Assembly (NCBI GenBank): GCA_001784175.1
Contig: MFPR01000021.1
Location: forward strand, 1 to 23,977
DNA: 23,977 nucleotides
Origin: Candidatus Lindowbacteria bacterium RIFCSPLOWO2_12_FULL_62_27
GTDB lineage: Bacteria; Lindowbacteria; 2-12-FULL-62-27
Direction: 5' to 3'
Shown one piece after another: positions 509-22,545 of the stretch. Position 1 is the first letter of the stretch. Each line of letters starts with the position of its first letter. Made by a program: the position numbers and the translations under genes. Under the pieces are notes generated by a model that searched no databases, was not told the origin of the DNA, and saw nothing but the letters and a program-made list of their open reading frames with translations.

Positions 509-913
509 TCACGGCACAATCAGGAGAGAATTCGTTTCGGTGCCCTCGACGTCGGTCCGGGGGTTGCCCTCGTCTTTTTTCCAATCGACGCCGTCGATCA
601 CGAATTTGTACTGATACCGTTGGCCGTGTTGAAGATAAACTTGGCTGCCGCCGCTGAATTCCCGAAAGGGGATAATCACACTCCATTTGCCATCGCCTAA
701 TTTTTTCATGAATATCCTTTTTTCGTCCGGCGAAGTTTTCCAATCGTTGAACGTGCCGGCCACTTGAACACTAAAGGCCACCGGATTGAAATACTGCAAC
801 AGCATGCCCGTCTCGACGGCCTGCGGCGGAGGCGGCCGGTCGCCGAGGAGGGCGCATCCCGCCATGACCAACAGAATCGACATGCCCCTCATTGCGGTTC
901 TCGCGCTCATCAT
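509..913 (-). CDS. Outer-membrane-type lipoprotein with one CBM48 domain
   Basis: A 134-residue protein with a lipoprotein signal ending V-M-A-G-C, so Cys20 is the predicted lipidated residue. Nearly all the rest (about 36-133) is one CBM48/AMPK-beta-type glycogen-binding E-set domain. It has A-G-T-F-N-D-W (Trp58), Y-K-F-V-I-D-G (Lys103), Trp111 after D-G-V-D, and a terminal T-N-S-L-L (Asn128). These match the sugar-contact positions of AMPK-beta (Trp, Lys, Trp, Asn). An insert of about 10 residues lengthens the loop before the last strands. No catalytic domain is present. The start overlaps the upstream stop as ATGA, so it is translationally coupled and last in the operon. A role in holding alpha-glucan at the envelope is inferred from the domain; ligand specificity cannot be read from sequence. 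A start at residue 8 would keep the same lipobox. Confidence 0.85.
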   Translation of the reverse strand: MMSARTAMRGMSILLVMAGCALLGDRPPPPQAVETGMLLQYFNPVAFSVQVAGTFNDWKTSPDEKRIFMKKLGDGKWSVIIPFREFSGGSQVYLQHGQRYQYKFVIDGVDWKKDEGNPRTDVEGTETNSLLIVP

Positions 914-1857
914 TCCACTTTTCCCTCTTTCCCCTCCATCTGCAAGGTCAGCGAAAGAAAAAGGCTTGAGCTGAAGTGCCCGATCCGGAGCGCCGCAAAA
1001 TCCACGCGCCCCGCCTCAAAAAGGTCGACGCCGAATCCAACCCGCAATTTCTCGTCTCCGTCCGGCGTATACGCATAGCCTCCGCGCACGTGAAACCGGC
1101 TCAAGAGGGTCGCCTCCAAACCGAACGTGGCCGTCATCCCGTCCTGAACGTTTCCGTGTTTCAGGGAGAAATTGAATGTCACAAGACGCCGATAGCCGAT
1201 GGACGGTTGAAACGCCATCGCCGCTTCCAATTCCGTCGGCAGCTTTTCCTTCTGAACGAACCCCATGTCCGGCCCGACATTTTTGAGCACGACGCCAAAC
1301 CGCCACAGATTCCCGTGCCCGGTCTGCAGTCGGCACTGATATCCGAAATCCCCCGCGTAGCCGTTCGCCGACCGATGGTACAGTGTCCGGTTCAAGTATT
1401 TCACGTTGAAGCCCAAGTGATGACGGCCCGTCAGCCGCAGTCCAATTCCGGTCGTCAGAACGCCGTCGCCGACCACGAAGGTGCTCAACGGCCGGCCCAC
1501 GTTGTCGCGCTCGGTTTCTTCCGCATGAAGATACGCTCCGCTGAACCCCCACGCGAGCGGACCCGCGGGAAACGCAAAGCCGAAGAATTCGTTTTGCATG
1601 CCGCTCAACCACTCGGTGTGCGTGGCCGTCATCTGCGTCCGGCCGACCGTCGCCAGTCCCGCGGGGTTGTAGTAGAGCCCGTGCACGTCGTCCACCAGCG
1701 CGCCAAATCCTCCGCCCATCGCCACCGCCCGCGCGCTTGGCTCGATCCGCAGAAAATCGGCGCCGCTGGACCGTTCGCCGGCGGTGGCGGAAGCCGCAGC
1801 AAGTAACGTGCAAGCGGCCGCGAGTACGATGAATTGCGACCTGTTACTAATATCCAT
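910..1857 (-). CDS. PorV/PorQ-family outer-membrane barrel protein (first copy)
   Basis: A 315-residue protein with a signal peptide (cleavage likely near Ala26, S-A-T-A). It then has the family signature: F-L-R-I-E-P-S-A-R-A-V-A-M-G-G-G, L-V-D-D-V and Y-Y-N-P-A-G-L. The remainder alternates short hydrophobic strands, as expected of a FadL/PorV-type beta-barrel. PorV proteins shuttle type IX secretion cargo, but many lineages carry relatives of unknown role. The start overlaps the previous stop by one base (TGATG) and the stop overlaps the next start (ATGA), so it is tightly coupled between the CBM48 barrel and the CBM48 lipoprotein. A role as outer-membrane pore or anchor for the CBM48 proteins is inferred. 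It is a distant relative, not a near duplicate, of the protein at 15798-16757. Confidence 0.8.
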   Translation of the reverse strand: MDISNRSQFIVLAAACTLLAAASATAGERSSGADFLRIEPSARAVAMGGGFGALVDDVHGLYYNPAGLATVGRTQMTATHTEWLSGMQNEFFGFAFPAGPLAWGFSGAYLHAEETERDNVGRPLSTFVVGDGVLTTGIGLRLTGRHHLGFNVKYLNRTLYHRSANGYAGDFGYQCRLQTGHGNLWRFGVVLKNVGPDMGFVQKEKLPTELEAAMAFQPSIGYRRLVTFNFSLKHGNVQDGMTATFGLEATLLSRFHVRGGYAYTPDGDEKLRVGFGVDLFEAGRVDFAALRIGHFSSSLFLSLTLQMEGKEGKVE

Positions 1858-3980
1858 CAGAACCTGAGCTCCGCCTGGAGCGCGATAATGGATTCTACGT
1901 CAAGTCTTGCCGCAGCTTCACCCATATTGGCCAATGTGCCAAGCCCAAATCCAACGTCGGCGCCGACGTTGGCAATCGCCTCCGCCCCCCGTTTATAGAA
2001 ATCATGCACCCGCCACGCCGCGCCGATTCTCTTGTCCTCATCGATGTAAGGATCCAGTCCATACCACAGGCGAATATGGAAGAGTTTTGACCATTCGTAT
2101 TTGATGCCCGCAAATGGTTTGATCATCTCATCAGAAAATCCTGTTTTCAGGGGAGTAGATTCAGCGTCATAACTCACATAGAAGTACCGCATCCCCAAAT
2201 CAAGATTCCAGCGGCTGCCCAATTTCCAGTTCAACCGCGACGATCCGATTCTTGTTTCAAATGATTCATCCAGGGTCCCGAATCGCTTGAAACTGGTCAG
2301 GTCCATCCAGTCCAATTTGTTATGCCAGGTGACCGCACGGGTCAACCGCCACTCCACGTAAATACGCTCCGCAAGCGTCCTTTTCGCCCAAGCGACATCT
2401 GAAAACTGGTAGTGAGGCGCGCCCAACCGCTCACGGTAGAAGATATTTCCTTGTTTGAGATCCGACCGTTTGACATACCGGCTCTCAAGCTCGAATCCCC
2501 ATTTTCGGTCCGGCCGGCGATTCAGCAACAGCCGGTGCGTGACCTCCATCCAGTCCGGGGATACCCGAACCAACTGACTGTCCGATGACACCGGCGCCGT
2601 TGTGAAGCTAAACGTCGTGGCCCGATAATTATGCAATTTTAAATTCAATTCGCTGGCCCAGGTTCGGCCCTCCACCACCGCTCCTGTCATCAGTGAAAGC
2701 CCGTCTGATTGATCTCCGAACACTCTCTCCTGACCCGCGGCGCCGGCGCCCGAAGTAACGGGCTGGCCATACGCGAAGACGAAGACCCGGCGCTGAAACC
2801 CGGTTGAATAGACCAAAGCGGCAGCGTCGTTCTGAGTCACGAGGACTTCCGTCATTAATTTCAAGCGGCCAAAGGTAAACGTGAAATCCATGGCGGTGCG
2901 GATACTTCTGTTCTGGCCGCCCGGTTTCACCTGGCGAAGCACGTCCATGTGATAGTATGAGCTGGACCCTGCGGGATATTCGATGGATCCGGGCCCCAGG
3001 TCGGTGACCGTTTTCACTTCATTTGAAAAGGTCCCACTCGCCTTGATCCCGTTCTCTATCTGCCACTGAACGTAGCTGATCCCCCATGAAAGCCGTTTGC
3101 CGCCGCGTTTCAGCCGAAACCCCCACACATCTTCGTCGATCGGGCTCTGATCCAGACGGACCTTGTTGGAAAAAAAAGCATATCCTTGCCAGGGGTCCCG
3201 CTTGAGATCGAAACTGAATCCCGTGGCATACCGGCCATACCGATGATAGAAGGGCCGCGCTTCACCCGTCAGGTAAATGTTGTCGTCAAAAATATAGTTG
3301 TGTTCATCCAGCAGTCGAAGGGGATCGTCAAAGTCGATCAGCCAGTGTGTCTCGAAGGGGCGGACCACCAGCGACCGGGTGTTGTCGCCGAGAGACAATT
3401 CCATGTAGGCTTCGTCCAGATTGAACCGGTCCGCGGACGCCGTATTTACATTGAGCTGCATCCAGACTTTCAGGAAATCCATAAAACTCGGCCGGATGTC
3501 AAAGTTCAAATCGAGGTCGTTTCTGGGCGACTCCGAGCGGATCCTCCCACCCGGCCCGTCCACGTCGTCCGTGAGCAGATTAAAGAAGAGAAAATAGCCG
3601 TCCATGTCGATTTTCGAAACATTGGGAAATCGCAGGTACGGCTGCCGCGGATAAATGTACAGCTTCCCGTCTCGCCGGACCAGCGTCACCTTGAGATCGT
3701 CTCCGGTCATAAAGCTGCCGTCGATCACGTACTTGTACTTATAGGTCCCCACCGGCAGCGGCAACACGATTTCAAACTTTCCGTCTTTTTTTTCCATGGG
3801 CAGAGACTTATCGTTCCATCCATTGAACTCGCCGGCCAAATGGACCTTCTCGGCGAGCGCGTCCTCGAATTGAAACAGAACGCCATATTCTGTCATCTCG
3901 GGCGGAAGGGGCGACGCCCATCCCGTTACAGGCGCCAAAGCGCCGATCAAGCACAAGCAGACCCCAAGGAAAAGGTTCAT
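1857..3980 (-). CDS. Outer-membrane beta-barrel with N-terminal CBM48 domain
   Basis: A 707-residue protein with a signal peptide to about Ser23. One CBM48 domain follows at about 32-103 (A-G-E-F-N-G-W with Trp55, Y-K-Y-V-I-D-G with Lys83, and Phe90 where AMPK-beta has its second Trp). A long region (about 120-707) of alternating amphipathic strands rich in Trp, Tyr and Arg ends in A-E-L-R-F. The terminal Phe is the usual outer-membrane assembly signal. Many extracellular-type loops and about 580 barrel residues suggest a large channel or adhesin, not a small porin. The CBM48 comes right after the signal, so it should sit on the periplasmic side. It overlaps its upstream neighbour by four bases (ATGA) and its downstream one by one. 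No TonB box or plug domain is seen, so it is not a SusC-type receptor. Substrate passage is inferred. Confidence 0.75.
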   Translation of the reverse strand: MNLFLGVCLCLIGALAPVTGWASPLPPEMTEYGVLFQFEDALAEKVHLAGEFNGWNDKSLPMEKKDGKFEIVLPLPVGTYKYKYVIDGSFMTGDDLKVTLVRRDGKLYIYPRQPYLRFPNVSKIDMDGYFLFFNLLTDDVDGPGGRIRSESPRNDLDLNFDIRPSFMDFLKVWMQLNVNTASADRFNLDEAYMELSLGDNTRSLVVRPFETHWLIDFDDPLRLLDEHNYIFDDNIYLTGEARPFYHRYGRYATGFSFDLKRDPWQGYAFFSNKVRLDQSPIDEDVWGFRLKRGGKRLSWGISYVQWQIENGIKASGTFSNEVKTVTDLGPGSIEYPAGSSSYYHMDVLRQVKPGGQNRSIRTAMDFTFTFGRLKLMTEVLVTQNDAAALVYSTGFQRRVFVFAYGQPVTSGAGAAGQERVFGDQSDGLSLMTGAVVEGRTWASELNLKLHNYRATTFSFTTAPVSSDSQLVRVSPDWMEVTHRLLLNRRPDRKWGFELESRYVKRSDLKQGNIFYRERLGAPHYQFSDVAWAKRTLAERIYVEWRLTRAVTWHNKLDWMDLTSFKRFGTLDESFETRIGSSRLNWKLGSRWNLDLGMRYFYVSYDAESTPLKTGFSDEMIKPFAGIKYEWSKLFHIRLWYGLDPYIDEDKRIGAAWRVHDFYKRGAEAIANVGADVGFGLGTLANMGEAAARLDVESIIALQAELRF

Positions 3981-5494: not shown

Positions 5495-6817
5495 TTACGA
5501 GGGTCGAAGGACGTTCAACTGCGCCAGGATTTTCCTTTCGACCAGCTTGCCCGCGTCCCGGAGGGCGGCCGGGACCGGTTTGGCGCCTTTCAGGGCCAGC
5601 TCCATTTCGGCGTTGACGATGGTTTCGAGCATGAAATAGTTGGGGATGTTGGGCCGCGGCCTGGCCGTCTGCATCTGTTCCATGAAGGTGCGAAGGTACG
5701 GGTGCGCCTCCGGGGACACCCTCCGGATCGCTTCGAGGCGCACCGGGATCTGGTTCAGCGTCTTCGACCAGCGGATCTGATGGTCGTTGGATGAGACGTA
5801 ATTCAAAAAGGCGAGCGCCAGTTTGGGATGTTTGGTCTTGCGGAAAATCACCATGTTTGTGCCGCCGACATTGGTCGATGTGCCCGCGGGGCCGGCCGGG
5901 ATGAGGGCCACGCCATAATCGACGCCCGACTGCCGGAAGGTTTCGAGGCGCCAGGGGCCGCTGAGAATCATGGCATACTTGCCGTTCATGAATCCCTGGT
6001 CCGCGCCGATGGCGCCCGGTTTCCAAGCGCCCGCTTCGAGCTGGTGTTTCTCGTACAAATCCACTTTCAGTTGCAGCGCCGCGACGCCCGAGTCCTCCGC
6101 CAGCCGGTATTTCCAGACGCCCCGCACCAGTTCGATAATCGGCGCCGCGTAGGTGTTGTAAAAGGGCATGGTCCACCACAGGGAATTGTCCATCCCGAAT
6201 CCGTACTCCTGCTGAGCCGTGTCGGTCAGCGCACGGCCATATCGAATGAAATCGTCCCATGTTTTCGGCGGCTCCAGCGGGTTCAATCCCGCCGCGGCCA
6301 GCTTCTGCGCCTTTTTCCTGAACACTTCGCGGTTCCAGTAGAGCGCGACGCACGTGGTCTGGTCCGGGATTCCGTACAGGTGCGTCACGTTGCCGATGGT
6401 GAGGAGATTCGATCCGATCGCGGCTTGCACAAATTTGTTCTTGAACGTTTCCAAGTCCGGCCCTTCGAAGCCGTCCGCTTTGTCGAGCGCCAGGAGCGCC
6501 TTGCCGTAGGCGAGGGTCGGCATGTCGCCGATGTCGACGCGGGCGATGTCGGGCGTCGTGTGGGTGAGGGCGGCGGTTTTGAGTTTGGACAAAAACCCGT
6601 CGAAGGGCACGCGCTGGATGTTCAGGCGGACTTTGACGCCGAACTCTTTTTCCGCAATCGGCACGAAATCCTCCGTGAGTTTGACGAACACGTTGTGCTC
6701 TTCCGTGTTGTAGGTTTCCCAGACCGTCAGGGTCACAGCGTCGTCGGAGACGGATGGGGAACGGCCACAGCCTGTCAAACACAGACAGACGAGGAGCGAC
6801 GAAACAAATATTTTCAT
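5495..6817 (-). CDS. Sugar ABC transporter substrate-binding lipoprotein (MalE-type)
   Basis: A 440-residue extracellular solute-binding protein, family 1. A signal peptide with lipobox L-T-G-C puts the lipidated Cys at residue 17, so the binding protein is membrane-tethered and not soluble like E. coli MalE. Typical features include T-V-W-E-T-Y at the start of lobe 1, D-I-A-R-V-D, Y-G-I-P-D, a hinge-region W-D-D-F, G-F-M-N-G-K-Y-A-M with S-G-P-W, and a C-terminal A-L-A-F-L-N-Y-V segment. These are found in maltose, trehalose and oligosaccharide binders. It directly precedes the two permeases' products in function; its start overlaps the upstream MalG-type stop by ATGA. The ligand is presumably an alpha-glucan oligosaccharide given the CBM48 context, but the binding-site residues do not let me name it. 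Confidence 0.9.
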   Translation of the reverse strand: MKIFVSSLLVCLCLTGCGRSPSVSDDAVTLTVWETYNTEEHNVFVKLTEDFVPIAEKEFGVKVRLNIQRVPFDGFLSKLKTAALTHTTPDIARVDIGDMPTLAYGKALLALDKADGFEGPDLETFKNKFVQAAIGSNLLTIGNVTHLYGIPDQTTCVALYWNREVFRKKAQKLAAAGLNPLEPPKTWDDFIRYGRALTDTAQQEYGFGMDNSLWWTMPFYNTYAAPIIELVRGVWKYRLAEDSGVAALQLKVDLYEKHQLEAGAWKPGAIGADQGFMNGKYAMILSGPWRLETFRQSGVDYGVALIPAGPAGTSTNVGGTNMVIFRKTKHPKLALAFLNYVSSNDHQIRWSKTLNQIPVRLEAIRRVSPEAHPYLRTFMEQMQTARPRPNIPNYFMLETIVNAEMELALKGAKPVPAALRDAGKLVERKILAQLNVLRPS

Positions 6818-8190
6818 CCTTTCACCGCCCCCTGGGTCATCCCTTCAATGAAATATCTCTGCGCGAACACGAAGAGGACGGCGACAGGGACGATCGAGAA
6901 ACACGCGCCGGCCATCTGCAGTTCCCACTGTGTCAGGTACTGGCCCTTGAAGAGCGCCAGGCCGACCGGCAGGGTCCGGAGGGCGCTGTCGGGCGTGTTG
7001 ACGACGAGCTGCCAGAGGAAATTGGACCACTGGCCGAGGAAGGTCAGCAAAAAGAGGGTGACCATGATCGGCATCGACAGCGGGATGACGATTTTGGTCA
7101 GCTCGTGATACTCGTTCGCGCCGTCCATCCGGGCGGCCTCGAAGAGCGAGTGCGGGATGGTTTCGATGTACTGCCGCATGAGGAATATCCCGAAGACGTT
7201 GGCGAGGTGCGGCACGATCATGCCGAGATAGGTGTTGATGCCGAAGATCCGCATTTCCTGAAGCGTCGTGCCGAACAGCGGCATCTTGCCGATGATGTTG
7301 ACCAGCGCGAACTGCGGGACGAAAAAGATCATCCCCGGCACCATCATGACGGACAACAGGAGATAAAAAAGCTTGTCCTTCCATAAGAAATCCTTCACCG
7401 CGAACACGTAACCCGCCAGCGTGCAGAGGATGACCGTCAAGAGGCCGCTCACGGTCCCCACCACCATGCTGTTGATGAAAAACCGGCCGAACGGGAAATC
7501 GGGCGACCCGGCGATCGCCGCGAAATTGCCCAAAGTATAGATCGACTTCAGGCCCGCCCAGAACGAGTTTCTTACGGAAAACCGGTACGTGACGTTCCCG
7601 CCGCCAGCCGCCAGCATCTCCGCGGACCAGCGGCTCTCAGCGTCTTTGACCAGCGGAATTTCCTTGTCATCGACCAGCGCCGTCACCGCGATCGCGGCGG
7701 GGTCCTGGTAGACGAACCGGACGCGCCCGCCCTCGTATTCGGTCCGGTCCGCCGACGGCGGGATGTCCAGCGCCTGGTTGGGCCCATCCATCCACTGGCC
7801 GTCCACCACGAATTTGTATTCGTGTTTGCCCACCGGCAGGCGCAGCGTCTTCTGAAACACGCCGCCGCCGGTGGTCGTCAGCGCCTCCGCGCCCGCGTTC
7901 CAGCCGTTGAACGTGCCCGCGACGGTAACGCGTTCGGCGCCAGGCGCGGTGTGAAAAAACGTGTGGGCCTGAAACGCGCCCGCGATTTCGCCCGGCGCCA
8001 GCGCCGCCGGTCCCGTCGTTCGCCGCAGTTCCGGCAGAAACTCGTTCTTGAGCGCCGTCCCCTGTTCCTTGAAGGCCGTGAGCAGCATCCAGAACAGCGG
8101 CATCAGCACGACCAGCGACCCCACGGTCAGCGCGACGTAGAGAAGGAGATTCCTCAGAATCAAGAACACCCAATCCGACCACGAGCGCAT
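6814..8190 (-). CDS. MalG-type sugar permease with CBM48 domain inserted in loop 1
   Basis: A 458-residue ABC permease, whereas MalG-type proteins are about 280-300. Membrane segment 1 is at about 13-37, then five more from about 238 to 447. The EAA loop (E-A-A-R-M-D-G-A at 351-358, ending I-V-I-P-L) shows the normal coupling site for the ATPase. The extra length lies between segments 1 and 2, on the periplasmic side. Residues 74-150 are a clear CBM48 domain with G-T-F-N-G-W (Trp97), Y-K-F-V-V-D-G (Lys126) and Q-W (Trp133), the AMPK-beta carbohydrate contacts. Residues 156-207 look like a second, decayed copy (R-F-V-Y-Q-D ... Y-R-F-S-V). Without about 50-215 the protein has ordinary MalG length. 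One base separates it from the MalF-type gene. A direct ligand-presenting role is inferred. It is not a sequencing fusion, since the frame is continuous. Confidence 0.92.
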   Translation of the reverse strand: MRSWSDWVFLILRNLLLYVALTVGSLVVLMPLFWMLLTAFKEQGTALKNEFLPELRRTTGPAALAPGEIAGAFQAHTFFHTAPGAERVTVAGTFNGWNAGAEALTTTGGGVFQKTLRLPVGKHEYKFVVDGQWMDGPNQALDIPPSADRTEYEGGRVRFVYQDPAAIAVTALVDDKEIPLVKDAESRWSAEMLAAGGGNVTYRFSVRNSFWAGLKSIYTLGNFAAIAGSPDFPFGRFFINSMVVGTVSGLLTVILCTLAGYVFAVKDFLWKDKLFYLLLSVMMVPGMIFFVPQFALVNIIGKMPLFGTTLQEMRIFGINTYLGMIVPHLANVFGIFLMRQYIETIPHSLFEAARMDGANEYHELTKIVIPLSMPIMVTLFLLTFLGQWSNFLWQLVVNTPDSALRTLPVGLALFKGQYLTQWELQMAGACFSIVPVAVLFVFAQRYFIEGMTQGAVKG

Positions 8191-8191
8191 C

Positions 8192-9118
8192 TTATTTGAT
8201 CCTCTTCGGCTGGAATATTTTCACGTTGATGATCGACACGGTGATCGCGACCACCAAAAGCACGTAGGACACGGCGGCCGCATAGCCATACTGGCCGTCC
8301 TCGAACTGCAGGTAGAGGTAAAAACCGGAAATGCGGCTCGCGCCCACCGTGTTGCCCATGACCGAAACGTTCGGCCCGCCGCGGCTGGTCATCGCATATA
8401 TTTCGGTGAACGCGTTCAGCGCGCCGAGGATGCCGGTGACGATGAGAAAGAGCGTGATGGGTTTCACGAGCGGCCACGTGATGTGCCGGAGTTTGTCCCA
8501 CCAGCCGGCGCCGTCGAATTCGGCGGCCTCATAGATGGATGTGGGAATGTTCTGGATCGCGGTCAGATACAGAATCATCCCAAAGCCGGATCCCTTCAGC
8601 ACCATCGCGAACGCCACGGCCGGCAGGGCGGTCCACGGTTCCGACATGAGCGCCGACTCAGCCAGCACGTCGATCTTCAGCGCGCGGCCCAGGACCGACA
8701 GGAGGCCGTACGTCGGCGCGTAGATCAACGTCCAGATGACGCCGACCACCAGCATGTCGAGGACGTTCGGCAGGAAAAACGCGCTGCGGAAAAATCCCCG
8801 GCCCGGCAGTCGGTTGTTCAGGAGGAGGGCCAGAAGAAGCGACAGCGCGATGAAGGCGGGGATCGTCAGAAAGGCGTAATAAAACGTGAGGAGGAGCGAC
8901 CACCAGAATTCGGGGTCGCCGAGGAGCGCCGCATAATTTCCGAATCCGACGAATTTCATGTCCGCAAACACGTTGTAAAAATCGGAATAGATCGTGTTCT
9001 TCTGGAAACTCAGGAGCAGAGAATAGAGGATGGGGTAAAGGAGAAAAATGCCGAAGACAACCAGAAACGGGGAGAGAAACACATACGAAACGATCGTGTC
9101 GCGCGTCTTGCGGTCCAT
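8192..9118 (-). CDS. MalF/UgpA-type sugar ABC permease
   Basis: A 308-residue inner-membrane permease with about six hydrophobic segments (from S-Y-V-F-L-S-P-F-L near 11 to A-A-V-S-Y-V-L-L near 281-290). Its EAA loop is E-A-A-E-F-D-G-A-G at 197-205, followed by W-P-L. It pairs with the MalG-type permease one base downstream and the MalK-type ATPase three genes upstream. I place the start at 9118 instead of the longest reading at 9220. The 34 extra residues are unlike any permease N-terminus and lie inside the upstream gene. A GGAG ribosome site sits about 7 bases before 9118, and the upstream stop ends two bases away. It lacks the large P2 periplasmic domain of E. coli MalF, as in most Gram-positive-type sugar permeases. 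Confidence 0.92.
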   Translation of the reverse strand: MDRKTRDTIVSYVFLSPFLVVFGIFLLYPILYSLLLSFQKNTIYSDFYNVFADMKFVGFGNYAALLGDPEFWWSLLLTFYYAFLTIPAFIALSLLLALLLNNRLPGRGFFRSAFFLPNVLDMLVVGVIWTLIYAPTYGLLSVLGRALKIDVLAESALMSEPWTALPAVAFAMVLKGSGFGMILYLTAIQNIPTSIYEAAEFDGAGWWDKLRHITWPLVKPITLFLIVTGILGALNAFTEIYAMTSRGGPNVSVMGNTVGASRISGFYLYLQFEDGQYGYAAAVSYVLLVVAITVSIINVKIFQPKRIK

Positions 9119-9120
9119 GC

Positions 9121-10578
9121 CTAGCTCCGACCCGCCGGAACGGCCGCGGCCGGATGGGCCTCTGGATTTCCCTGTGGCCGGAAGACCCGCACGCAGTTTC
9201 GGCCCGCGTGTTTCGCGCAATAGAGCGCCTCGTCCGCGCTCTTGATCAGCCGGTCGGCCGTCAGGGACGGGTCGTCGCTCTGGACGGTCTGCGACAGGTC
9301 GTTGACGCCGATGCTGATGGTCACGGCCAGCGCTGTGGTCTCCAGCTTCACCGGCGTTTTGCCGACCGCGCCCCGAATCCGCTCGGCCACGCGCGCGGCG
9401 TCGGACGCGGCGGTTTCCGGGAGAATCGCCGATATCTCCTCGCCGCCGTATCTCGCCACGAGGTCCCCGTCGCGTAATACTGATTTGATCCGGCCGGCGA
9501 CATCCCGCAGCACGGTGTCACCCGCGAGGTGCCCGTACGTGTCGTTCACCTGTTTGAAATGGTCGAGGTCCATCATCAGAAGCGTCAGGGGCCGGCCACT
9601 CCGCATGGACCGGTGCACTTCGTCCTTCAGGCGGTCCTTGAAATACCAGAGGACATAGAGTCCGGTCAGGCGGTCCGTGATGGCCATCTGATTGACCTGC
9701 TCGTAGAGCACACTGTTCTGGACCGCAAGCCCGAGGAGGTCCGCCGTGACGGCGAGGAGTTTCACGTCCGGCGGCGACAGCGGGATCGTGACGAGCCAGC
9801 CTTCGATCTCGAGGCACAATCCGCCCAGCAACCTGTTCTGATACCGGACGGGGAGCGCGATCCAGGCGCCCTCGCGAATGACACCCGAAGGTTCCGCCCC
9901 CTCCGGCGCGGCGCGCGGCCGGAGAACTTTCTCCTTGACGGCGCGGCCGCGCGAGGCGTCCTCCATCGACGCCGCCGCCCGCGGATTGCGCAGGTCGATG
10001 TCCTCGCCCGATGCGAGGCAGAGCCACATGGCGTTCAGTTGCAAGTCGCGCCGCCGCGCAAGCTCCTTCAGGCTCTGGCCCGCGGCGGCCAGGATGTCGA
10101 CGCGGGCCATGCCCACGGTCTGCCGGGTCGCGAGGTCATACACCGTCTGAAACAGCGTGATCTCCTCCTGAACGCGATCGAATTGATTCTTCATTTCTTC
10201 CAGCGAGATCATGGACTCGGTGTTCTGCCGTTCCAGACGCCGCCGGACGAGTTCGTGCCGGTAGCCATCCATCCACTGCCGGCGGATCACGGCACACCCG
10301 AATTCCAGGAGGCCAAACCAGACCAGCGCGATCCATATCTGGTGAATGAACATCCCACCCCGAACCGCCGGAAGAACGACCAGCGCCGCCGACATCAGCC
10401 GCGCCGGCATCCCGAAGGGCCGGGGGGCGCCGCGCACAAAGGCAAAGAGAGCGATCATCGCCGCCAGAACGCCCAAATGGTATTTGTCGACGCCAAATCT
10501 CGCCGGCCACGCCATCCCCGCCGCCCCGACAACCGCCGATGCGACGACGATGACCAGCGCCGCGCGGCGCTCAGTCAT
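9121..10578 (-). CDS. Membrane GAF-GGDEF diguanylate cyclase (first)
   Basis: A 485-residue protein with hydrophobic segments within about 6-95, a coiled region (about 105-145), a GAF-like domain (about 145-295) and a C-terminal GGDEF domain (about 297-465). The catalytic loop reads G-G-E-E-I (378-382), so the last residue of the usual G-G-E-E-F is Ile. The Mg/GTP motif L-M-M-D-L-D-H-F-K-Q-V-N-D is intact. The inhibitory RxxD site (369-372) stands five residues before the loop as in WspR, so product feedback is expected. It makes c-di-GMP if active. It lies inside the sugar-transporter operon, overlapping the other GGDEF gene by eight bases and ending two bases before the MalF-type start. Signal input is unknown. 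The Phe-to-Ile change may lower activity but the acidic residues needed are present. Confidence 0.88.
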   Translation of the reverse strand: MTERRAALVIVVASAVVGAAGMAWPARFGVDKYHLGVLAAMIALFAFVRGAPRPFGMPARLMSAALVVLPAVRGGMFIHQIWIALVWFGLLEFGCAVIRRQWMDGYRHELVRRRLERQNTESMISLEEMKNQFDRVQEEITLFQTVYDLATRQTVGMARVDILAAAGQSLKELARRRDLQLNAMWLCLASGEDIDLRNPRAAASMEDASRGRAVKEKVLRPRAAPEGAEPSGVIREGAWIALPVRYQNRLLGGLCLEIEGWLVTIPLSPPDVKLLAVTADLLGLAVQNSVLYEQVNQMAITDRLTGLYVLWYFKDRLKDEVHRSMRSGRPLTLLMMDLDHFKQVNDTYGHLAGDTVLRDVAGRIKSVLRDGDLVARYGGEEISAILPETAASDAARVAERIRGAVGKTPVKLETTALAVTISIGVNDLSQTVQSDDPSLTADRLIKSADEALYCAKHAGRNCVRVFRPQGNPEAHPAAAVPAGRS

Positions 10579-12073
10579 GGTCCACCACCTGGTCCCGGCC
10601 GGTATTTTTCGCGCGGTACAGGCGCCGGTCGCTGATCTGGAACAGTTGTTCCGGATCGCCGGTGTCGGCCGGAAACGACGCGACGCCGACGCTGACGGTC
10701 ACCCGAAACGTGGGCGCCGGGCCGCCCTTCGGCGCGCCCTCGGCGGGCTCGCCCTGAAACGCGATGGCCTTGATTTTGCCGGCGATATCCTCCGCCCGAG
10801 CCTTCGCCTGGGGACGCGTGGCGTCCGGGAGCGCCACCAGAAATTCCTCGCCGCCCCATCGGCAGGGCAGCGGCCCGCCCCAGTCGACTTCGCGGATCAC
10901 GCGGCCGACCGCCTGCAGCACGCGATCCCCCACCGAGTGACCATAGGTGTCGTTGACGCGCTTGAATAAATCGATGTCGACCAGGATCACGGACAGGTTG
11001 TTCGATTTCCGAAGAGCCCGCTTGCATTCCTCCGAAAAACGCTTCTCGTAATAATACCGCTTGTACAACCCGGTCTGGCCGTCGGTCAGCGCCAGTTCCT
11101 CCGTCCGCTCATACAGCCGGACGTTGCTGGCCGACATCGAAAAGACGGAGGCAATGTGGCTCAGGATCACCATGTCGTCATGATCGAACCGTTCCGGTTG
11201 CTCCGACACCACGCGAAGATTCCCGTATATGTTGCCCTCTTCAATCAGAGGACACACGAGCGCCGACCGGCCGGAAAAACGGCTCTCGGCGCTCTGAAAC
11301 CGCGAGTCCTTGTCGCGGTCCACCACCAGGATGTTTTGCCGCGACTGCCCCGCCACCAGGTCCAGACCGTCCGGGCACGGAACCAGGAGGTCGTACGTCC
11401 GGCGCTGGTACCGGCGGCCCTGGGAAGCCGGCTGAGATGCGGGCCGGACGACGGCCGCAGACCGCGCGTCCGCACGGGGCGGCGCGGCGCTGAGCCACAG
11501 GCTGGCGCGGTCTTCCGGAAAGAGCGCCTCGACCGTCGCGAGGACCGCCTCGGCCAACTGGTCGAACTTCAGCGTCGACGAACACTCGTGGACGACGCCG
11601 ACGAGCGAGGTCCATGTTTGGAGTCGCTTCTCATGTTTTTCGGTTTTCTGCACAAATTCCTCCTCGCCCTCGTGCGACATCCTCACCGCCGTCTCCAGAT
11701 CGCCGGCGACGCTCCGCCGGTGATCCCGCCCGGTATGGATGTCCTGGATCCACGTCGAATAGAACGCCATAAAACCGGCGACGACGATGCCGCCCACCGC
11801 CAGCGTCAGGCCCCGGGCCATCGGGATGCCGATCACGGCCACGAGCGTGGCCGTGATGAGAAACCCGACCGCGAGCGGCCCGCCGCGGATGCCGAACTGG
11901 TGGATGAAAAACACGCCGGTGAGGGCGAAGAGGGACAGCGCGGCGATTTCCGAGCCGGCCGCGAAGATCGGCGCCACGATGAGGCTCGTGGCCGAGACCG
12001 CCAGAAGCCCGAGGGTGGGGACGAGCCGGTCGATGCGGAAATTTTCGTCGAGCCGGACGAGGGCGTTGGTCAT
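10571..12073 (-). CDS. Membrane GAF-GGDEF diguanylate cyclase (second)
   Basis: A 500-residue protein with four hydrophobic segments within about 17-108, a coiled linker, a GAF domain (about 160-322) and a GGDEF domain (about 327-498). The loop is G-G-E-E-F (407-411) and the metal site is V-D-I-D-L-F-K-R-V-N-D, both intact. Five residues before the loop, where RxxD would be, the sequence is W-G-G-P, so the inhibitory site is missing and product inhibition should be lost. It differs in this way from its neighbour, giving the operon one feedback-sensitive and one insensitive enzyme. I use the ATG at 12073, which forms an ATGA overlap with the ATPase stop. A reading 65 codons longer lies inside the ATPase gene and looks non-coding. 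The architecture suggests duplication of a common ancestor with strong divergence. Confidence 0.88.
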   Translation of the reverse strand: MTNALVRLDENFRIDRLVPTLGLLAVSATSLIVAPIFAAGSEIAALSLFALTGVFFIHQFGIRGGPLAVGFLITATLVAVIGIPMARGLTLAVGGIVVAGFMAFYSTWIQDIHTGRDHRRSVAGDLETAVRMSHEGEEEFVQKTEKHEKRLQTWTSLVGVVHECSSTLKFDQLAEAVLATVEALFPEDRASLWLSAAPPRADARSAAVVRPASQPASQGRRYQRRTYDLLVPCPDGLDLVAGQSRQNILVVDRDKDSRFQSAESRFSGRSALVCPLIEEGNIYGNLRVVSEQPERFDHDDMVILSHIASVFSMSASNVRLYERTEELALTDGQTGLYKRYYYEKRFSEECKRALRKSNNLSVILVDIDLFKRVNDTYGHSVGDRVLQAVGRVIREVDWGGPLPCRWGGEEFLVALPDATRPQAKARAEDIAGKIKAIAFQGEPAEGAPKGGPAPTFRVTVSVGVASFPADTGDPEQLFQISDRRLYRAKNTGRDQVVDHD

Positions 12074-13191
12074 GGAACGGCGGCGTCGATGCGTTTCTCC
12101 GATTCGGGATCGAAAAATTTCACCTTCCGGAAATCCAGCACAATGTTCATCTCCTGCTGGGGCTCGATCTTCGTCTCCGGTCCCATGCTCGCCGTCAGCG
12201 TGTGCTTGCCGTTCCGCAAATACACGTATATCTCCGACCCCAGTGGCTCGACGACGTCCACGACGCACCGGATCGCGTCGCTCAGCGTCCGCTGCGGCGT
12301 GTAGAGCGTGTCGTAGATGTCCTCCGGCCGGACGCCCATGACGATGTCGCGGCCGACGGCGCGGCGTTTTTGCAGAATGCCCGAAATTTCCGCCGGCAGC
12401 GGCAGATCGAACGATCCGCCGTGAAGCCGCACCTGGCCGTTTTCCTGGAGGACCGACAGCCTCATGAAATTCATGGGCGGCATGCCGATGAATCCGGCCA
12501 CAAACTGGTTCGCCGGCTCCTCGTACAGATGAATGGGCGTGTCGACCTGCTGAACGACGCCGTCCCGCAGGACGGTGATTCGGCCGCCCAGGGTCATCGC
12601 CTCCGTCTGGTCGTGCGTCACGTAGATCATGGTCGACTGGAGCCGGTTGTGGAGCCGCGCCAGCTCCACGCGCATCTGCACGCGCAGCTTCGCGTCCAGG
12701 TTCGACAGCGGCTCGTCGAACAGAAAGACCTTCGGGCGCTGGACGATCGCGCGGCCCACCGCCACGCGCTGGCGCTGCCCGCCGGAAAGCTGCTTGGGAT
12801 AGCGTTCGAGGAGGTGCTTGATCTCAAGGACCTCGGCGGCCTCCGCCACGCGCTTTTCGATTTCGTCTTTGGGATATTTCTTCAGCCGCAGTCCGAACGA
12901 AAGGTTGTCCTCGACGCTCATGTGCGGGTACAGGGCGTAGTCCTGAAACACCATGGCGACGTTGCGGTCCTTCGGCGGCAGATGGTTCACCACCTTGCCG
13001 TCGATCCGGACTTCGCCGGCCGTCACTTCCTCGAGGCCCGCGACCATTCTCAGGAGGGTGGATTTCCCGCACCCGGAGGGACCCACCAACACCATGAATT
13101 CCCGGTCCTTGATCTTCAACGATACTTCCTTGACCGCCTTCACTCCGGCCGCGTACTGCTTGACGACGTTTGTCAGCTCGACCTCTGCCAT
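12070..13191 (-). CDS. MalK/UgpC-type sugar ABC transporter ATPase
   Basis: A 373-residue ATPase with all motifs: Walker A G-P-S-G-C-G-K-S-T (37-45), Q-loop Gln83, signature L-S-G-G-Q (135-139), Walker B V-F-L-F-D-E (155-160), D-loop S-N-L-D and H-loop His193. The C-terminal part (about 235-370) is the regulatory TOBE/OB domain of the MalK-UgpC-MsmK group, with G-V-R-P-E-D. It energises the two permeases encoded downstream. The gene starts immediately after the stop of the six-CBM48 gene (TAA directly followed by ATG in reading order) and ends in an ATGA overlap with a diguanylate cyclase. So the ATPase and its permeases are separated by two signalling genes, an unusual order. A specific symbol is not assigned because the substrate is unproven. 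Confidence 0.95.
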   Translation of the reverse strand: MAEVELTNVVKQYAAGVKAVKEVSLKIKDREFMVLVGPSGCGKSTLLRMVAGLEEVTAGEVRIDGKVVNHLPPKDRNVAMVFQDYALYPHMSVEDNLSFGLRLKKYPKDEIEKRVAEAAEVLEIKHLLERYPKQLSGGQRQRVAVGRAIVQRPKVFLFDEPLSNLDAKLRVQMRVELARLHNRLQSTMIYVTHDQTEAMTLGGRITVLRDGVVQQVDTPIHLYEEPANQFVAGFIGMPPMNFMRLSVLQENGQVRLHGGSFDLPLPAEISGILQKRRAVGRDIVMGVRPEDIYDTLYTPQRTLSDAIRCVVDVVEPLGSEIYVYLRNGKHTLTASMGPETKIEPQQEMNIVLDFRKVKFFDPESEKRIDAAVP

Positions 13192-15786
13192 TTATTTCAC
13201 CTCAACACTCCATTTGTTTCCCGGTTTGTCCCGGTTCAGCGAATTCCAGTCTCCGTCTTCCACGTACTTGTATTCATATCGGCCGACCGGCAAATCTACC
13301 ATCGTTTCCCACCAGCCGCCGCCTTTTCTTCGAAGCTCGATGCCGTTCGGGTCCCAGTTGTTGAAATCGCCGGCCAATGTCACCCGGCGCGCCTTCGGGG
13401 CCTCGATCCGGAACGTCCACGGCACCTTGATGTCCCTCAACCTCAGAATTTCCACCTTGATCATCGAATCCGGACCGAACCCGGCGTCCAGCCGGTCCGG
13501 GTTCTCCGGGTCCAGCTTTCCAACACCGTCCACGTAATATTTGTATGTATATGTTCCCGGCCTCAGCTTCAAGGTCGACACCCACAAACCGTCCGGCCGC
13601 TTCATCATGGGCCAGGCGTCGGGAACCCAGTTGTTGAACGACCCGGCCAGGTACACCTGTTCCGCCCACATGTCCTGATACGCAAACATCACCTGGCCGT
13701 TCGGCAGCATGTGAACGCCCGGCGTCAGGCCGTCCTTGTTCGCGAGTTCGGCGGGCGTCGGGCCCGTGACGCGGGCCAACGAGTTGCTGTTGCCGCCGAC
13801 CTCTTTTTTCAATGGATTCTCCGGGTCCAACCGCCAGTCCCCGTCGACGACAATCTTGTAGGCGTATTCGCCGGGATCGAGCCGCATGGTCCGCGTCCAG
13901 ACGCCGTCCGATCCCTTATCCATCAAGCCGTCCTCCCATTTCCAATTGTTAAACTCGCCGCCCACCCCGACCTTCTTCGCGTCCGGCGCCTTGTATTTGA
14001 ACGTCACCTCCGGAACCTGGGCCGCAGCCCGCACCTGTTTCGTTTCGGGTCTGTGGGGCGCGGCCGTGGTGGGCGCGGGCGCTCCGGCAGGGGCGGCGAC
14101 CACACCCGCGCCTCCTTCCGGCGCCGCCACCGTGACCGTGCGGTTGTCCTTGTTGGCTTTGTCCCAGTCGCCGTCCACCACGAATTTGTATTCATATTGC
14201 CCGGGCTTGAGATCGACGGCGACTTCCCATTTCCCGTCGTCGGCGCCGCTCTTCTTCATCTCCAGCGCGGCCGGATTCCACTGATTGAATTCCCCGGCCA
14301 GCGTGACCTTCTTCGCCTTCATGTCGGTGTGAGAAAACACGGTCGGGACCGTTTCCGGCCGAGGCGTGACACTCACGGGAGTGGGCGCAGGCGCGGGCGC
14401 GGGTGGCAGTAACTCAGCGACAACGACAGCCATCCCAACGCGAATGAGAGAGTTTTGCGTCCCGTCCACAGCCTTCTTCAGCGGGTTTTCCGGATCTTCC
14501 ACCCAGTCGCCTTCCACGACGAATTTGTACGCATACTCGCCCGGCGAAAGCCGCAGCCTGATCGTCCAGACGCCGTCCGGACCCTTTTTCATCCGCGCGG
14601 CCTTCCAATCCCACCGGTTGAATTCACCGCCGACCCCCACCAGAATCGCGTTCGGATCCCTGTACCGAAATTGCACGTCCACCAGCCCCGCGCTGTCGGC
14701 GACGGCCGCCGAAAAACTCGGGCCGGCCGGGGAATCCAAAGACGCGGCCCGGCGAACAAGATCCCTGATTTCTTTGGGCGCAACTTCCGGAAGCCGCACG
14801 TCAGGCCGGGGCGGCGACACGGACGTCAGCCGTCCCTGCCCACCGTCCGACAGGGATGTCGGACGCTCCGGCAGGGGCGGCGACACGGACGGCGCTTTTT
14901 GTTTTGGCGCAACCGGCAGCGGAACCGGCGCGGGCGCCGGGACTTTCTGCGAGAGCGCGACCGGTTTCACCGACGCGATCATCTTCGGAGGCTCCTTGCG
15001 CCTCGCCAGACCTTTCGCAGGGCCGATGACGGGACCGAGGTCAGCCGCAGCCGGAATCCCCGGCGACGCGCGAGGAGAAGGTTGGACAGCAGGCGAAGAC
15101 GTTCGGCGCGCAATCCCCTTCGCCGCCCCCAACGCCGGACTGCCTGCCGTCAACCCCTTCCCCCCTTGTGGGGGAAGGCTGGGATGGGGGGACTCTTTCG
15201 CAATCACCGGCGCAACCGCCGGCTGTTCCACCTTGGCCGCCGCAATCACCGGCGCGACGCGGGGAACTTCGACCTTCGAAACCGGCGGCATCACAACTTT
15301 CACCGGCAGAATTTCCGCCTTCGTAACGGGCGCCACCGGCGGCGACACGGATGTCAGCCGTCCCTGCCCACCGTCCGACAGGGATGTCGGACGCTCCGGC
15401 AGGGACGCCGGCACGGCCGACACGGGCAATTCCGGCAGAAGCGTCATTCCGGCCGCAGCCGGGGTCTGGTCCGCCTTGACATTGACCGTCCGGTTGTCCT
15501 TGTTGGCCTTGTCCTCGTTGCCGTCCACCACGAACTTGTATTCATACCGCCCGGGGTTCAGGTCCTTCTGAAGGACCCACTCGCCCGCCAGGTTCTTCTG
15601 CATTTCATCCGCCGTTTTGTCCCAGTTGTTGAATTCCCCCGCCACCGTCACCTTCTTGGCGCCCGCATCCGCATGCTTGAACGTCACAAGGACAGCCTCC
15701 GCACCCTGGCCCCCAAGGAAGAGCATCCCCCCTATTATATATACATACAAATATATATATATGTGCCTCCAAAATCTCAGTTTCAT
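13192..15786 (-). CDS. Secreted protein with six CBM48 modules
   Basis: An 864-residue exported protein with no catalytic or membrane domain after the signal peptide (cleavage likely after A-E-A, residue 31). CBM48 modules lie at about 33-103, 370-450, 481-553, 593-673, 697-778 and 789-863. Modules 1 and 3 share a D-K-A-N-K-D-N-R-T-V tail; 2 and 4 share D-P-E-N-P-L-K-K, so they alternate A-B-A-B, with 5 and 6 as divergent B and A types. All six keep the F-N-x-W Trp and the Y-K Lys; the second ligand Trp (D-G-D-W) is kept in 2, 3, 4 and 6 but lost in 1 and 5. The 266-residue Pro/Ala-rich linker after module 1 contains three in-frame palindromic repeats. The start has AGGAG 8 bases upstream and lies 11 bases after the PorV stop. 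A multivalent glucan scaffold in periplasm or on the surface is inferred. Confidence 0.9.
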   Translation of the reverse strand: MKLRFWRHIYIYLYVYIIGGMLFLGGQGAEAVLVTFKHADAGAKKVTVAGEFNNWDKTADEMQKNLAGEWVLQKDLNPGRYEYKFVVDGNEDKANKDNRTVNVKADQTPAAAGMTLLPELPVSAVPASLPERPTSLSDGGQGRLTSVSPPVAPVTKAEILPVKVVMPPVSKVEVPRVAPVIAAAKVEQPAVAPVIAKESPHPSLPPQGGKGLTAGSPALGAAKGIARRTSSPAVQPSPRASPGIPAAADLGPVIGPAKGLARRKEPPKMIASVKPVALSQKVPAPAPVPLPVAPKQKAPSVSPPLPERPTSLSDGGQGRLTSVSPPRPDVRLPEVAPKEIRDLVRRAASLDSPAGPSFSAAVADSAGLVDVQFRYRDPNAILVGVGGEFNRWDWKAARMKKGPDGVWTIRLRLSPGEYAYKFVVEGDWVEDPENPLKKAVDGTQNSLIRVGMAVVVAELLPPAPAPAPTPVSVTPRPETVPTVFSHTDMKAKKVTLAGEFNQWNPAALEMKKSGADDGKWEVAVDLKPGQYEYKFVVDGDWDKANKDNRTVTVAAPEGGAGVVAAPAGAPAPTTAAPHRPETKQVRAAAQVPEVTFKYKAPDAKKVGVGGEFNNWKWEDGLMDKGSDGVWTRTMRLDPGEYAYKIVVDGDWRLDPENPLKKEVGGNSNSLARVTGPTPAELANKDGLTPGVHMLPNGQVMFAYQDMWAEQVYLAGSFNNWVPDAWPMMKRPDGLWVSTLKLRPGTYTYKYYVDGVGKLDPENPDRLDAGFGPDSMIKVEILRLRDIKVPWTFRIEAPKARRVTLAGDFNNWDPNGIELRRKGGGWWETMVDLPVGRYEYKYVEDGDWNSLNRDKPGNKWSVEVK
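14810..14876. repeat. In-frame palindromic coding repeat, copy 1
   Basis: A 67-base unit identical to 15338-15404 except for one base. It contains a hairpin: outer arms CCCTGCC (14834-14840) and GGCAGGG (14870-14876), inner arms CGTCCGACA (14844-14852) and TGTCGGACG (14857-14865) around a GGGA loop. It is translated as about residues 304-326 of the six-CBM48 protein. An 18-base direct repeat (14808-14825 and 14874-14891) brackets it, probably the start of a second, truncated unit. Confidence 0.85.
15156..15190. repeat. In-frame G-rich palindromic coding repeat
   Basis: CCTTCCCCC (15156-15164) and GGGGGAAGG (15170-15178) form a hairpin with a 5-base loop, followed by CTGGGATGGGGGG. It has the same build as the intergenic elements at 20799, 22406 and 23871 (C-arm, short loop, G-arm, then GGG-rich tail), though not the same sequence. 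It encodes about residues 199-212 (S-P-H-P-S-L-P-P-Q-G-G-K-G) of the linker. Confidence 0.75.
15338..15404. repeat. In-frame palindromic coding repeat, copy 2
   Basis: The second copy of the 67-base unit, 66 of 67 bases equal to 14810-14876. Here the outer stem is longer: CGTCCCTGCC (15359-15368) pairs perfectly with GGCAGGGACG (15398-15407). It encodes about residues 128-149 of the six-CBM48 protein, in the same frame as copy 1, giving the repeated peptide L-P-E-R-P-T-S-L-S-D-G-G-Q-G-R-L-T-S-V. Confidence 0.85.
15751..15762. repeat. (AT)6 microsatellite in a signal-peptide coding region
   Basis: Six AT units lie within a longer AT-only tract (about 15734-15763), in otherwise GC-rich sequence. 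On the coding strand it encodes the Ile-Tyr-rich core of the signal peptide of the six-CBM48 protein (residues 8-18). Loss or gain of one unit would shift the frame. A TATAAT hexamer and a G6 run followed by an in-frame ATG (codon 21) lie just downstream on the coding strand. Confidence 0.7.
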
Positions 15787-19501: not shown

Positions 19502-20692
19502 CTACGAAGCGGACTTGCGCTGGGCGATGACCGCCCGCGTCTTGATCGGCTTGCCCTGCGGCACGCCGTCCACATAGGGCGTCAGGTAGATCGTTCCCTC
19601 CATGGCGCCGTCCGAAAACACGACTTGCGGGTCGAAATACTCGACGAGAAAAATCACCGTCACCGCCACACCCCGCGTCCACCGGGCCGCGCCGCCGCTG
19701 AAATTCTGGTCCGCCGTGTCGTTCTGGAATCCGTAGGCGTCCACCCACAGCACCGTGTACACGAAAGAGTCGCCGTTCGGCGTCGCTGGGATCGACGTGT
19801 CCGTGAATGTCACCGGAACGTGGTAGTACCCGCCTCCGTAGGCTGCCCGGTTCGGCGAGTACAGCGTGTCGCCCATCACCTGGTTCACGACCGTGTCCTC
19901 GAACCGCAGGTGCGACGGCATCGTCGTATCCGAACTCCATCCCGACGGCAGCCGGGCCCGCAGAATCCGGAATCCGTACGGCGTGTACGTCCCCGTATCG
20001 AACTCCTTCGCGCCCTCCACCGTAGGGACGATCTCGTCCCCGGTCGTGATCTTCAGTTGCCAACTGATCTTCACGGCCGTGTCCGCTGTCTGAACGGCCG
20101 ACACGCCGTAGTTGTTGTTGCCGCCGAGATCCGTCGTGTCGTTATTTCCGCTGGAACTGACATCCGTCGTTCCCAGATACTGCGCCAAGTCCGGGTTCTG
20201 AACCGTCAGCCATGAATCCCCGGACACCGGCGTTCCCTGCTTGCCCATCACGTCCTGGTCGCCAAACCGGTTGTAGAACACGTACCCCTCCGACGCGCTT
20301 GCCGGCACCGTGATCGTCCGCTGGGTGCTCTGGTCCTGCGCCCGGGGTCCGCCGATCGTCGTACTCTTCCACCCCGACGCCGAGTCGAAAATCGGAATCC
20401 GGTACTCGAACCAGTACGAGTAATTGGCGCCGGCCACCACCACCGCCGTGCATACCCACGATCCGTCCCCCACAGCCCGCATTGGAATCGCGCACGACCG
20501 CACCAATCCTAAATGCCCCTGGACCGTCTCCGCGTCCACCGGACACGGATACGTGCCGGTCTCGAAGACGATCGCCTTCGAAAAATCCCCATAGCCTCCC
20601 CTCTGATACCCGGCCACCGTCATCGCCTCGGCGCTCACCGCCAGAAGCCCGACGATCGCCATCACCAGAAACACTGCTCCTGTTCCTCTCAT
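19502..20692 (-). CDS. Secreted E-set/FN3-like protein, paralog 1 of 3
   Basis: A 396-residue exported protein of no family I can name. The mature part begins M-T-V-A-G-Y-Q after a signal ending A-E-A (about residue 23). An N-terminal beta-sandwich contains three conserved Cys (in Y-P-C-P, R-S-C-A and W-V-C-T) and the E-set pattern V-G-D-G-S-W ... Y-S-Y-W-F-E-Y. A middle block holds D-L-A-Q-Y-L-G-T-T-D-V-S-S-S-G-N-N. A later FN3-like sandwich has V-K-I-S-W-Q, Y-G-F-R-I-L-R-A and Y-T-V-L-W-V-D-A-Y-G. I take the start at 20692: AGAGGTGAG lies about 6 bases upstream and a signal peptide follows at once. It lacks the T-V-Y-T-D-T-Q-K-T segment of the other two copies, so it is the most divergent, and it is 39 bases from the main operon. 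Function is unknown; surface or extracellular location is inferred. Confidence 0.8.
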   Translation of the reverse strand: MRGTGAVFLVMAIVGLLAVSAEAMTVAGYQRGGYGDFSKAIVFETGTYPCPVDAETVQGHLGLVRSCAIPMRAVGDGSWVCTAVVVAGANYSYWFEYRIPIFDSASGWKSTTIGGPRAQDQSTQRTITVPASASEGYVFYNRFGDQDVMGKQGTPVSGDSWLTVQNPDLAQYLGTTDVSSSGNNDTTDLGGNNNYGVSAVQTADTAVKISWQLKITTGDEIVPTVEGAKEFDTGTYTPYGFRILRARLPSGWSSDTTMPSHLRFEDTVVNQVMGDTLYSPNRAAYGGGYYHVPVTFTDTSIPATPNGDSFVYTVLWVDAYGFQNDTADQNFSGGAARWTRGVAVTVIFLVEYFDPQVVFSDGAMEGTIYLTPYVDGVPQGKPIKTRAVIAQRKSAS

Positions 20693-20741
20693 ATCGATCT
20701 CACCTCTATGGACCGCGCGACGCTCGCGCAGCCCCAAACTC

Positions 20742-20764
20742 CGGACGACGACACGCGTCGTCCG
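20742..20764. promoter_or_regulatory. Leader hairpin upstream of paralog 1
   Basis: CGGACGACG (20742-20750) and CGTCGTCCG (20756-20764) form a perfect 9-base stem with a 5-base loop, about 50 bases before the start codon. The sequence between it and the start includes GCGGTCC and AGAGGTGAG, also found before paralogs 2 and 3. Confidence 0.5.
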
Positions 20765-20798
20765 CACTCCGATCTATCCTTCACCCTCCGCCTCGCCC

Positions 20799-20837
20799 CC
20801 CTCTCCCCCGCAGGGGGAGAGGGTTGGGGTGAGGGGG
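20799..20837. repeat. Dispersed G-rich palindrome (family P1), copy a
   Basis: CCCTCTCCCCC (20799-20809), a GCA loop, GGGGGAGAGGG (20813-20823), then TTGGGGTGAGGGGG. The plus strand contains four G runs with loops of 3, 2 and 3, a textbook potential G-quadruplex. The same unit recurs at 22406-22443 and 23871-23908. I recognise it as a kind of intergenic repeat common in many GC-rich bacterial genomes. Confidence 0.85.
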
Positions 20838-20861
20838 TTATCGGCCCTTCGCTCTCCCCGA

Positions 20862-20931
20862 CGTTCCTCCCTAACTCCCCGGAGGGGACCTCCAACGCTT
20901 CCCCTCCGGAGAGGGAGGGAAGGGAGGAACG
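20862..20931. repeat. 70-base palindromic repeat (family P3), copy a
   Basis: Outer arms CGTTCCTCCCT (20862-20872) and AGGGAGGAACG (20921-20931) are perfect complements. Inside, CTCCCCGGAGGGGA pairs with TCCCCTCCGGAGAG with one mismatch, so nearly the whole unit can fold into one long hairpin. A second copy begins at 23929 and is cut by the window end. Both copies sit about 20-25 bases beyond a P1 element, forming a composite. Confidence 0.8.
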
Positions 20932-20955
20932 CCGGGAAGAGCACGGGCCAAAGCC

Positions 20956-21017
20956 GTACACTTCCTGCTCACGTATGAGTCCTTCAGTCCTCGGTCCTCA
21001 GACCTCGGACCTCGTTC
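20956..21017. repeat. 60-base direct repeat downstream of paralog 2 (copy 1)
   Basis: The stretch from GTACACTTCCTGC to CCTCGTTC closely matches 22457-22519, which lies in the same place after paralog 3. It contains the GGTCC/GGACC-rich motif CGGTCCTCAGACCTCGGACC. The gene and its flank were therefore duplicated together. Confidence 0.7.
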
Positions 21018-21068
21018 CCTTACTCCTTACTCAGCACTCATCACCTCACAATCCGTAGGCCTCAGCCC

Positions 21069-22301: not shown

Positions 22302-22327
22302 CTGCCTTTCACCTCACTCTGTTTTCA

Positions 22328-22348
22328 CGGACCGCCTTTCGCTGTCCG
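22328..22348. promoter_or_regulatory. Leader hairpin upstream of paralog 2
   Basis: CGGAC (22328-22332) pairs with GTCCG (22344-22348) across an 11-base loop. The hairpin stands about 27 bases before the start, at the same place as the one at 23810-23832, with the loop sequence changed. Confidence 0.4.
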
Positions 22349-22405
22349 CCCGTCGCTTCAACTCAACTCAACTCAACACATCTATGCTCACCCTCCACCG
22401 CTCCC

Positions 22406-22443
22406 CCCTCTCCCCGCAGGGGGAGAGGGTTGGGGTGAGGGGG
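22406..22443. repeat. Dispersed G-rich palindrome (family P1), copy b
   Basis: CCCTCTCCCC (22406-22415), a GCAG loop, GGGGAGAGGG (22420-22429), then TTGGGGTGAGGGGG. It is the same element as 20799-20837, and here it is not followed by a P3 palindrome. Confidence 0.85.
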
Positions 22444-22456
22444 TTCTCGCGCTCCT

Positions 22457-22519: not shown

Positions 22520-22545
22520 ACCTCGCCATCCTCATGCCTCAGGCC

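Follow-up and report, generated by a model that had tools for sequence, protein, structure and literature searches.

In type I ABC importers, the supply of substrate and the specificity are commonly ascribed to a separate binding protein. In the MalG-type permeases of these importers, the loop between TM1 and TM2 is periplasmic. The MalG of Escherichia coli (296 aa), a subunit of the CUT1 type I importer MalFGK2-E, contains neither a CBM48 nor any other domain in this loop. A folded periplasmic insert beside the binding protein is found in its partner MalF, whose P2 insert lies between TM3 and TM4, is not a CBM48 and has no glucan-binding residues. Large inserts in the MalG loop itself have been known since 2008, when hydrophilic TM1–TM2 inserts of about 500 aa, with no recognized similarity and of unknown function, were reported for MalG1 and MalG2 of the Thermotogales (PMC2246101).

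The CBM48 fold is represented by AMPK-β, a cytosolic kinase subunit, and by the CBM48/E-set tandems at the N termini of GH13 enzymes such as GlgB and pullulanase, in which the tandem precedes the GH13 barrel. Here, we describe a MalG-type permease whose TM1–TM2 loop contains a CBM48. It is encoded within a stretch of 23,977 nucleotides (the window) from Candidatus Lindowbacteria bacterium RIFCSPLOWO2_12_FULL_62_27. The initial annotation knew of no other ABC importer permease with its own carbohydrate-binding domain. This holds within the open-access literature searched, outside which most subscription journals lie and in which no report of a CBM48 or any other CBM in an ABC permease was found, but it does not extend to the insertion as such. 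Inserts in the MalG loop were already known, with no domain identified in those of 2008, and what is new within that literature is the CBM48 as the insert.

Architecture of the permease

The permease gene (6814..8190, minus strand) is one uninterrupted open frame of 458 aa with a two-domain insert in a loop. Hydropathy places TM1 at residues 15–33 (8092..8148, minus strand; a helix of residues 4–39 in the model) and the next TM segment at residues 247–265, and therefore the CBM48 insert sits in the TM1–TM2 loop. This is where the initial annotation had put it, as positions 7570–7971 of the minus strand correspond to residues 74–207 of the single frame. By analogy with the MalG topology, the insert would be located on the periplasmic side. 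The TM2–TM6 core with the EAA loop (residues 234–458; 6817..7489, minus strand; EAARMDGA at residues 351–358) contains a BPD_transp_1 domain at residues 258–448 (Pfam, E 8.7e-13, 48.8 bits versus a cut-off of 26.4). The TM part of the model superimposes on E. coli MalG (2r6g_G) with a Z score of 18.9 and 2.8 Å over 260 residues (VIA-align), and Foldseek matched the same structure. The TM domain, the EAA loop and a match to the MalG model are common to both proteins. Because residues 229–458 match the NCBIfam MalG model NF008231 with 108 bits, below the equivalog cut-off of 261, the permease is classed by sequence as MalG-like and not as a MalG equivalog of that model. Subtracting about 160 aa for the insert gives a length in line with that of insert-less relatives (275–300 aa), in agreement with the proposal that its removal restores a normal MalG.

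The first domain of the insert (residues 73–153; 7732..7974, minus strand) is a CBM48. Pfam AMPK1_CBM matches residues 81–139 (E 6.5e-13, 49.1 bits versus a cut-off of 26.8) and CBM_48 also matches the permease (E 4.4e-8, 33.8 bits versus 22.4), so that both models and BPD_transp_1 are found in one protein. An AlphaFold2 model, calculated with the window protein and 29 relatives as the alignment, has a pLDDT of 82.3 overall and about 90–96 across the insert (about 89–96 for the CBM48), which forms two β-sandwiches with strands at residues 73–153 and 151–208. In a Foldseek search, the first sandwich matched the CBM of AMPK-β1 (4yef and 1z0m) with TMt values of 0.67–0.71 and 30% sequence identity; 4yef, the cyclodextrin complex, gave a TMt of 0.67. 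The predicted fold and the fold search both give E-set sandwiches, and the segment is not an ordinary permease loop.

Trp97 (7900..7902), Lys126 (7813..7815) and Trp133 (7792..7794, all on the minus strand) align with W100, K126 and W133 of AMPK-β and fall on its GSFNNW, HQYKF and DGQW motifs (PDB sequence search, E 2.3e-9), as proposed from the first reading of the DNA. Unlike AMPK-β, the window domain lacks the C-terminal 'DPxN...NS' loop segment, which several relatives retain and which makes up the other side of the AMPK site. In AMPK-β1, glycogen binding is abolished by W100G and K126Q and weakened by W133L (PMC6274970).

The second sandwich (residues 154–208; 7567..7731, minus strand) is an E-set/CBM48-like domain on the membrane side that contains no binding triad. 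Modeled alone, it has a pLDDT of 89.4. Its nearest folds are the E-set/CBM48 domains of the GH13 proteins pullulanase, GlgB and glycosyltrehalose trehalohydrolase (best VIA Z of 7.5), while Foldseek returned no match with E below 0.001. Weak GlgB_N matches occur at the same position in the relatives L049 and L135. As modeled, therefore, two E-set domains in tandem make up the insert, with the binding triad in the first alone. The tandem arrangement is shared with the GH13 enzymes, to whose domains the second sandwich is closest, although here it is found in the loop of a membrane permease instead of ahead of a catalytic barrel. The second sandwich had been described as decayed. It is indeed present and fast-evolving: identity between the window and its Lindowbacteria relative L039 falls from 81% in the TM domain and 61% in the CBM48 to 32% in the second sandwich (dN 0.79, dS 1.44). 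However, its confident predicted fold, both in the whole model and alone, does not support plain decay.

Distribution and evolution of the insert

A relative from Lindowbacteria, L039/L010, is 69% identical to the window permease over its full length. The insert is found at the identical site in this relative and in some 25 homologues from Lindowbacteria, Sumerlaeota, Planctomycetota, Blastocatellia and further groups. The recurrence of the architecture in an independent genome at this level of identity, together with the open frame, excludes an assembly or frameshift artefact joining two genes. Permeases with full inserts at this site carry the labels Sumerlaeota, Planctomycetota, Blastocatellia and Uabimicrobium, and one more comes from a genome deposited as Dependentiae. 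The Pfam cut-off for CBM48-type domains is passed by the window permease and by L039–L042, L044–L046, L048, L049, L102 and L134–L137. Insert-bearing permeases were detected in two of the three genomes of the window's own phylum, about 13 of 40 Sumerlaeota genomes, 4 of 162 Blastocatellia genomes and 6 of 392 genomes of the Planctomycetota group, and a broad sample of 386 genomes yielded only three full-length cases. The CBM48-in-permease architecture is real, conserved and rare.

The W/K/W triad is intact in ten permeases (the window, L039, L042, L045, L046, L102, L116, L117, L118 and L121), with the last Trp of L042, offset by one gap in the alignment, assigned by eye; L049 has W/Q/W. About half of the insert-bearing homologues have no binding triad. 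Partial or complete loss of the triad, with the loop retained, is seen in Blastocatellia, Uabimicrobium and most derived Sumerlaeota members. The CBM48 part has been dropped in L050, L055 and L060, of which L055 and L060 are shortened and L050 retains the second sandwich.

On a tree built from the TM domain only, insert-bearing permeases cluster strongly, requiring 6 changes versus 20.9 in shuffles. In a closer set of relatives, the insert requires three changes, and a tree that unites its bearers in one clade is not rejected (p-AU 0.14). With insert-less Sumerlaeota (291–300 aa), the shortened L055 and L060 and the CBM48-less L050 among the relatives, the pattern fits one gain with later losses as the probable direction of change. 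Under such a history, the tandem E-set unit would have invaded the TM1–TM2 loop once, in an ancestor common to several phyla. A recent local copy of a neighboring CBM48 finds no support, since the window loop groups with that of L039 and is nearest to the loops of other permeases, not to the CBM48 domains encoded by its neighbors. A tree with the permease-loop CBM48s as one clade apart from those of neighboring genes is not rejected (p-AU 0.285), with the deep branches of the domain tree unresolved. Between the window and L039, the CBM48 (dN 0.29, dS 0.92; dN/dS of about 0.3) is under purifying constraint, and the TM core (dN 0.14, dS 0.85) is the most constrained part.

Other MalG-like permeases carry different inserts in this loop. 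In Cloacimonadota, the TM1–TM2 periplasmic loop contains a helix-hairpin-helix domain (HHH_3; Pfam, E 2.5e-14), found at residues 120–176 of L064:8399-9838 and residues 117–174 of L073:7965-9296. In a 739-aa permease (L087:1495-3711), the site is occupied by a long insert (about 460 aa) that has no confident Pfam match; this permease resembles the long MalG proteins reported from Thermotogales. No CBM48 was found by Pfam in the long inserts of the MalG-like permeases L019, L020 and L024. Since a CBM48, HHH_3 and a long unclassified insert occupy it in different lineages, the MalG TM1–TM2 loop seems particularly prone to domain insertion. The likeness between the window permease and MalG1/MalG2 of the Thermotogales (PMC2246101) lies in the insertion site alone. 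In a control search, Thermotoga maritima gave an AMPK1_CBM match at the level of the whole genome.

Gene neighborhood of the importer

The permease gene belongs to a minus-strand operon that also encodes the MalF, MalK and binding-protein components. It includes a secreted protein (13192..15786) that consists largely of six AMPK1_CBM domains and low-complexity linkers and has no catalytic domain. This gene is followed by a MalK/UgpC-type ATPase with an OB_MalK domain (12070..13191; Pfam and NCBIfam), two genes for GAF-GGDEF diguanylate cyclases (9121–12199) and a MalF-type partner of 310 aa with six TM segments (8195..9124, or 8192–9124 in the operon order; Pfam/NCBIfam and hydropathy). After the permease come a substrate-binding lipoprotein (5495..6817; SBP_bac_1/8 with weak MalE and GanS matches; Pfam and NCBIfam) and a series of envelope genes, all on the minus strand: another secreted protein, a secreted or outer-membrane-like protein with an N-terminal CBM48 (1857..3980; Pfam E 2.1e-12), a PorV/UPF0164-like protein and a small CBM48 lipoprotein (509..913; CBM_48 E 1.1e-6). 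Elsewhere in the window, positions 19502–23784 encode three tandem paralogous secreted proteins of 410–421 aa with no Pfam match.

No glycoside hydrolase is encoded within the 23,977-nt window. The relatives' permeases are flanked by α-amylases, several with CBM48 (L056, L061, L070 and L053), by a cyclomaltodextrinase and a pullulanase-like enzyme (L041), or by a GH31 enzyme (L136). Because of these α-glucan enzyme genes, the substrate of the importer is likely an α-glucan. The host genome has 14 α-amylase domain matches; α-amylase domains lie there in very long open frames (G000:C6:121755-122864, 8313 aa; G000:C31:9143-9592, 4195 aa).

Possible roles of the insert

The architecture of the initial annotation is borne out by HMMs, structure prediction, a fold search and the occurrence of homologues that combine the two domains in several phyla. 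The permease is most likely the MalG subunit of a maltodextrin/α-glucan importer, whose CBM48 probably tethers α-glucan at the periplasmic face. The outer CBM48 would stand atop the membrane-side sandwich, and Trp97, Lys126 and Trp133 would bind the terminus of an α-glucan chain, linear or branched. The polymer and its degradation products, supplied by periplasmic GH13/GH31 enzymes or through capture by other CBM48 envelope proteins, would then be held close to the entrance for translocation and to the binding protein. In this way, the CBM48 may raise the local substrate concentration for both the binding protein and the translocation path. The match to AMPK-β with the triad aligned, the confident fold close to that of the cyclodextrin-bound 4yef, the insert and triad kept across phyla, the constraint on the CBM48, the clustering of the insert on the TM-domain tree, the α-glucan neighbors, the many α-amylase domains of the host and the further CBM48 envelope proteins argue for such a tether. 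The triad losses, the CBM48-less L050, L055 and L060, the C-terminal segment missing from the window domain and the window without a glycoside hydrolase argue against it.

The main rival to glucan tethering assigns the loop to docking or allostery: it would touch the binding protein or MalF, as P2 does in E. coli, with the CBM48 serving as a sandwich for protein contacts and not for glucan. We consider this rather unlikely, although several features agree with it. E. coli MalF-P2 is reported to signal substrate availability, in a study cited by PMC8134467. The MalF proteins of the window and of nine relatives (307–333 aa, six TM segments), unlike that of E. coli, have no P2 loop. MalF-P2 may be a functional analogue of the permease insert. 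Moreover, the CBM48-less L050 retains the membrane-side sandwich, and many members keep the loop despite having lost the triad. Yet, some ten distant members keep the triad even though the identity of their loop regions is otherwise only about 30%, and docking alone fails to explain why exactly the glucan-contact residues are retained.

Two further explanations are less likely than docking. It is improbable that the CBM48 acts as an α-glucan sensor, restraining or activating the importer with no hand-over of sugar, as glycogen acts on AMPK. The CBM of AMPK-β regulates its complex upon glycogen binding (PMC6274970), and the two GAF-GGDEF genes between malK and malF hint at regulation. However, no coupling element is visible from the loop to the NBDs, and BLAST did not find the GGDEF genes in those neighborhoods of relatives that were examined. 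Still more remote is the possibility that the insert is neutral in function and in decay, and that the periplasmic loop is permissive enough to tolerate it. The rapid divergence of the second sandwich, the shortening or loss of the insert in several lineages and the unrelated inserts of Cloacimonadota and L087 in the same loop would be expected of a neutral insert, but the CBM48 itself is constrained and its binding residues are kept in several phyla.

Glucan tethering, the reading we favor, suggests that the importer keeps its own food polymer at the entry gate. More tentatively, and with some doubt on our part, the polysaccharide module of the permease may act as a second capture site that feeds or gates uptake, as the initial annotation had envisaged, and the operon may form a CBM48 relay across the envelope. 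The members of such a relay would be MalG, the outer-membrane-like protein, the lipoprotein and the six-domain periplasmic protein. As the insert amounts to one soluble loop of some 160 residues, the idea can be tested directly, and a CBM48 insert provides a specific hypothesis for the large Thermotogales MalG loops that have been unexplained since 2008. If true, the transporter would itself bear a second capture site or sensor in the form of its built-in polysaccharide-binding module, and it would be a natural model for the way in which uptake is coupled to the periplasmic breakdown of starch in uncultured bacteria.
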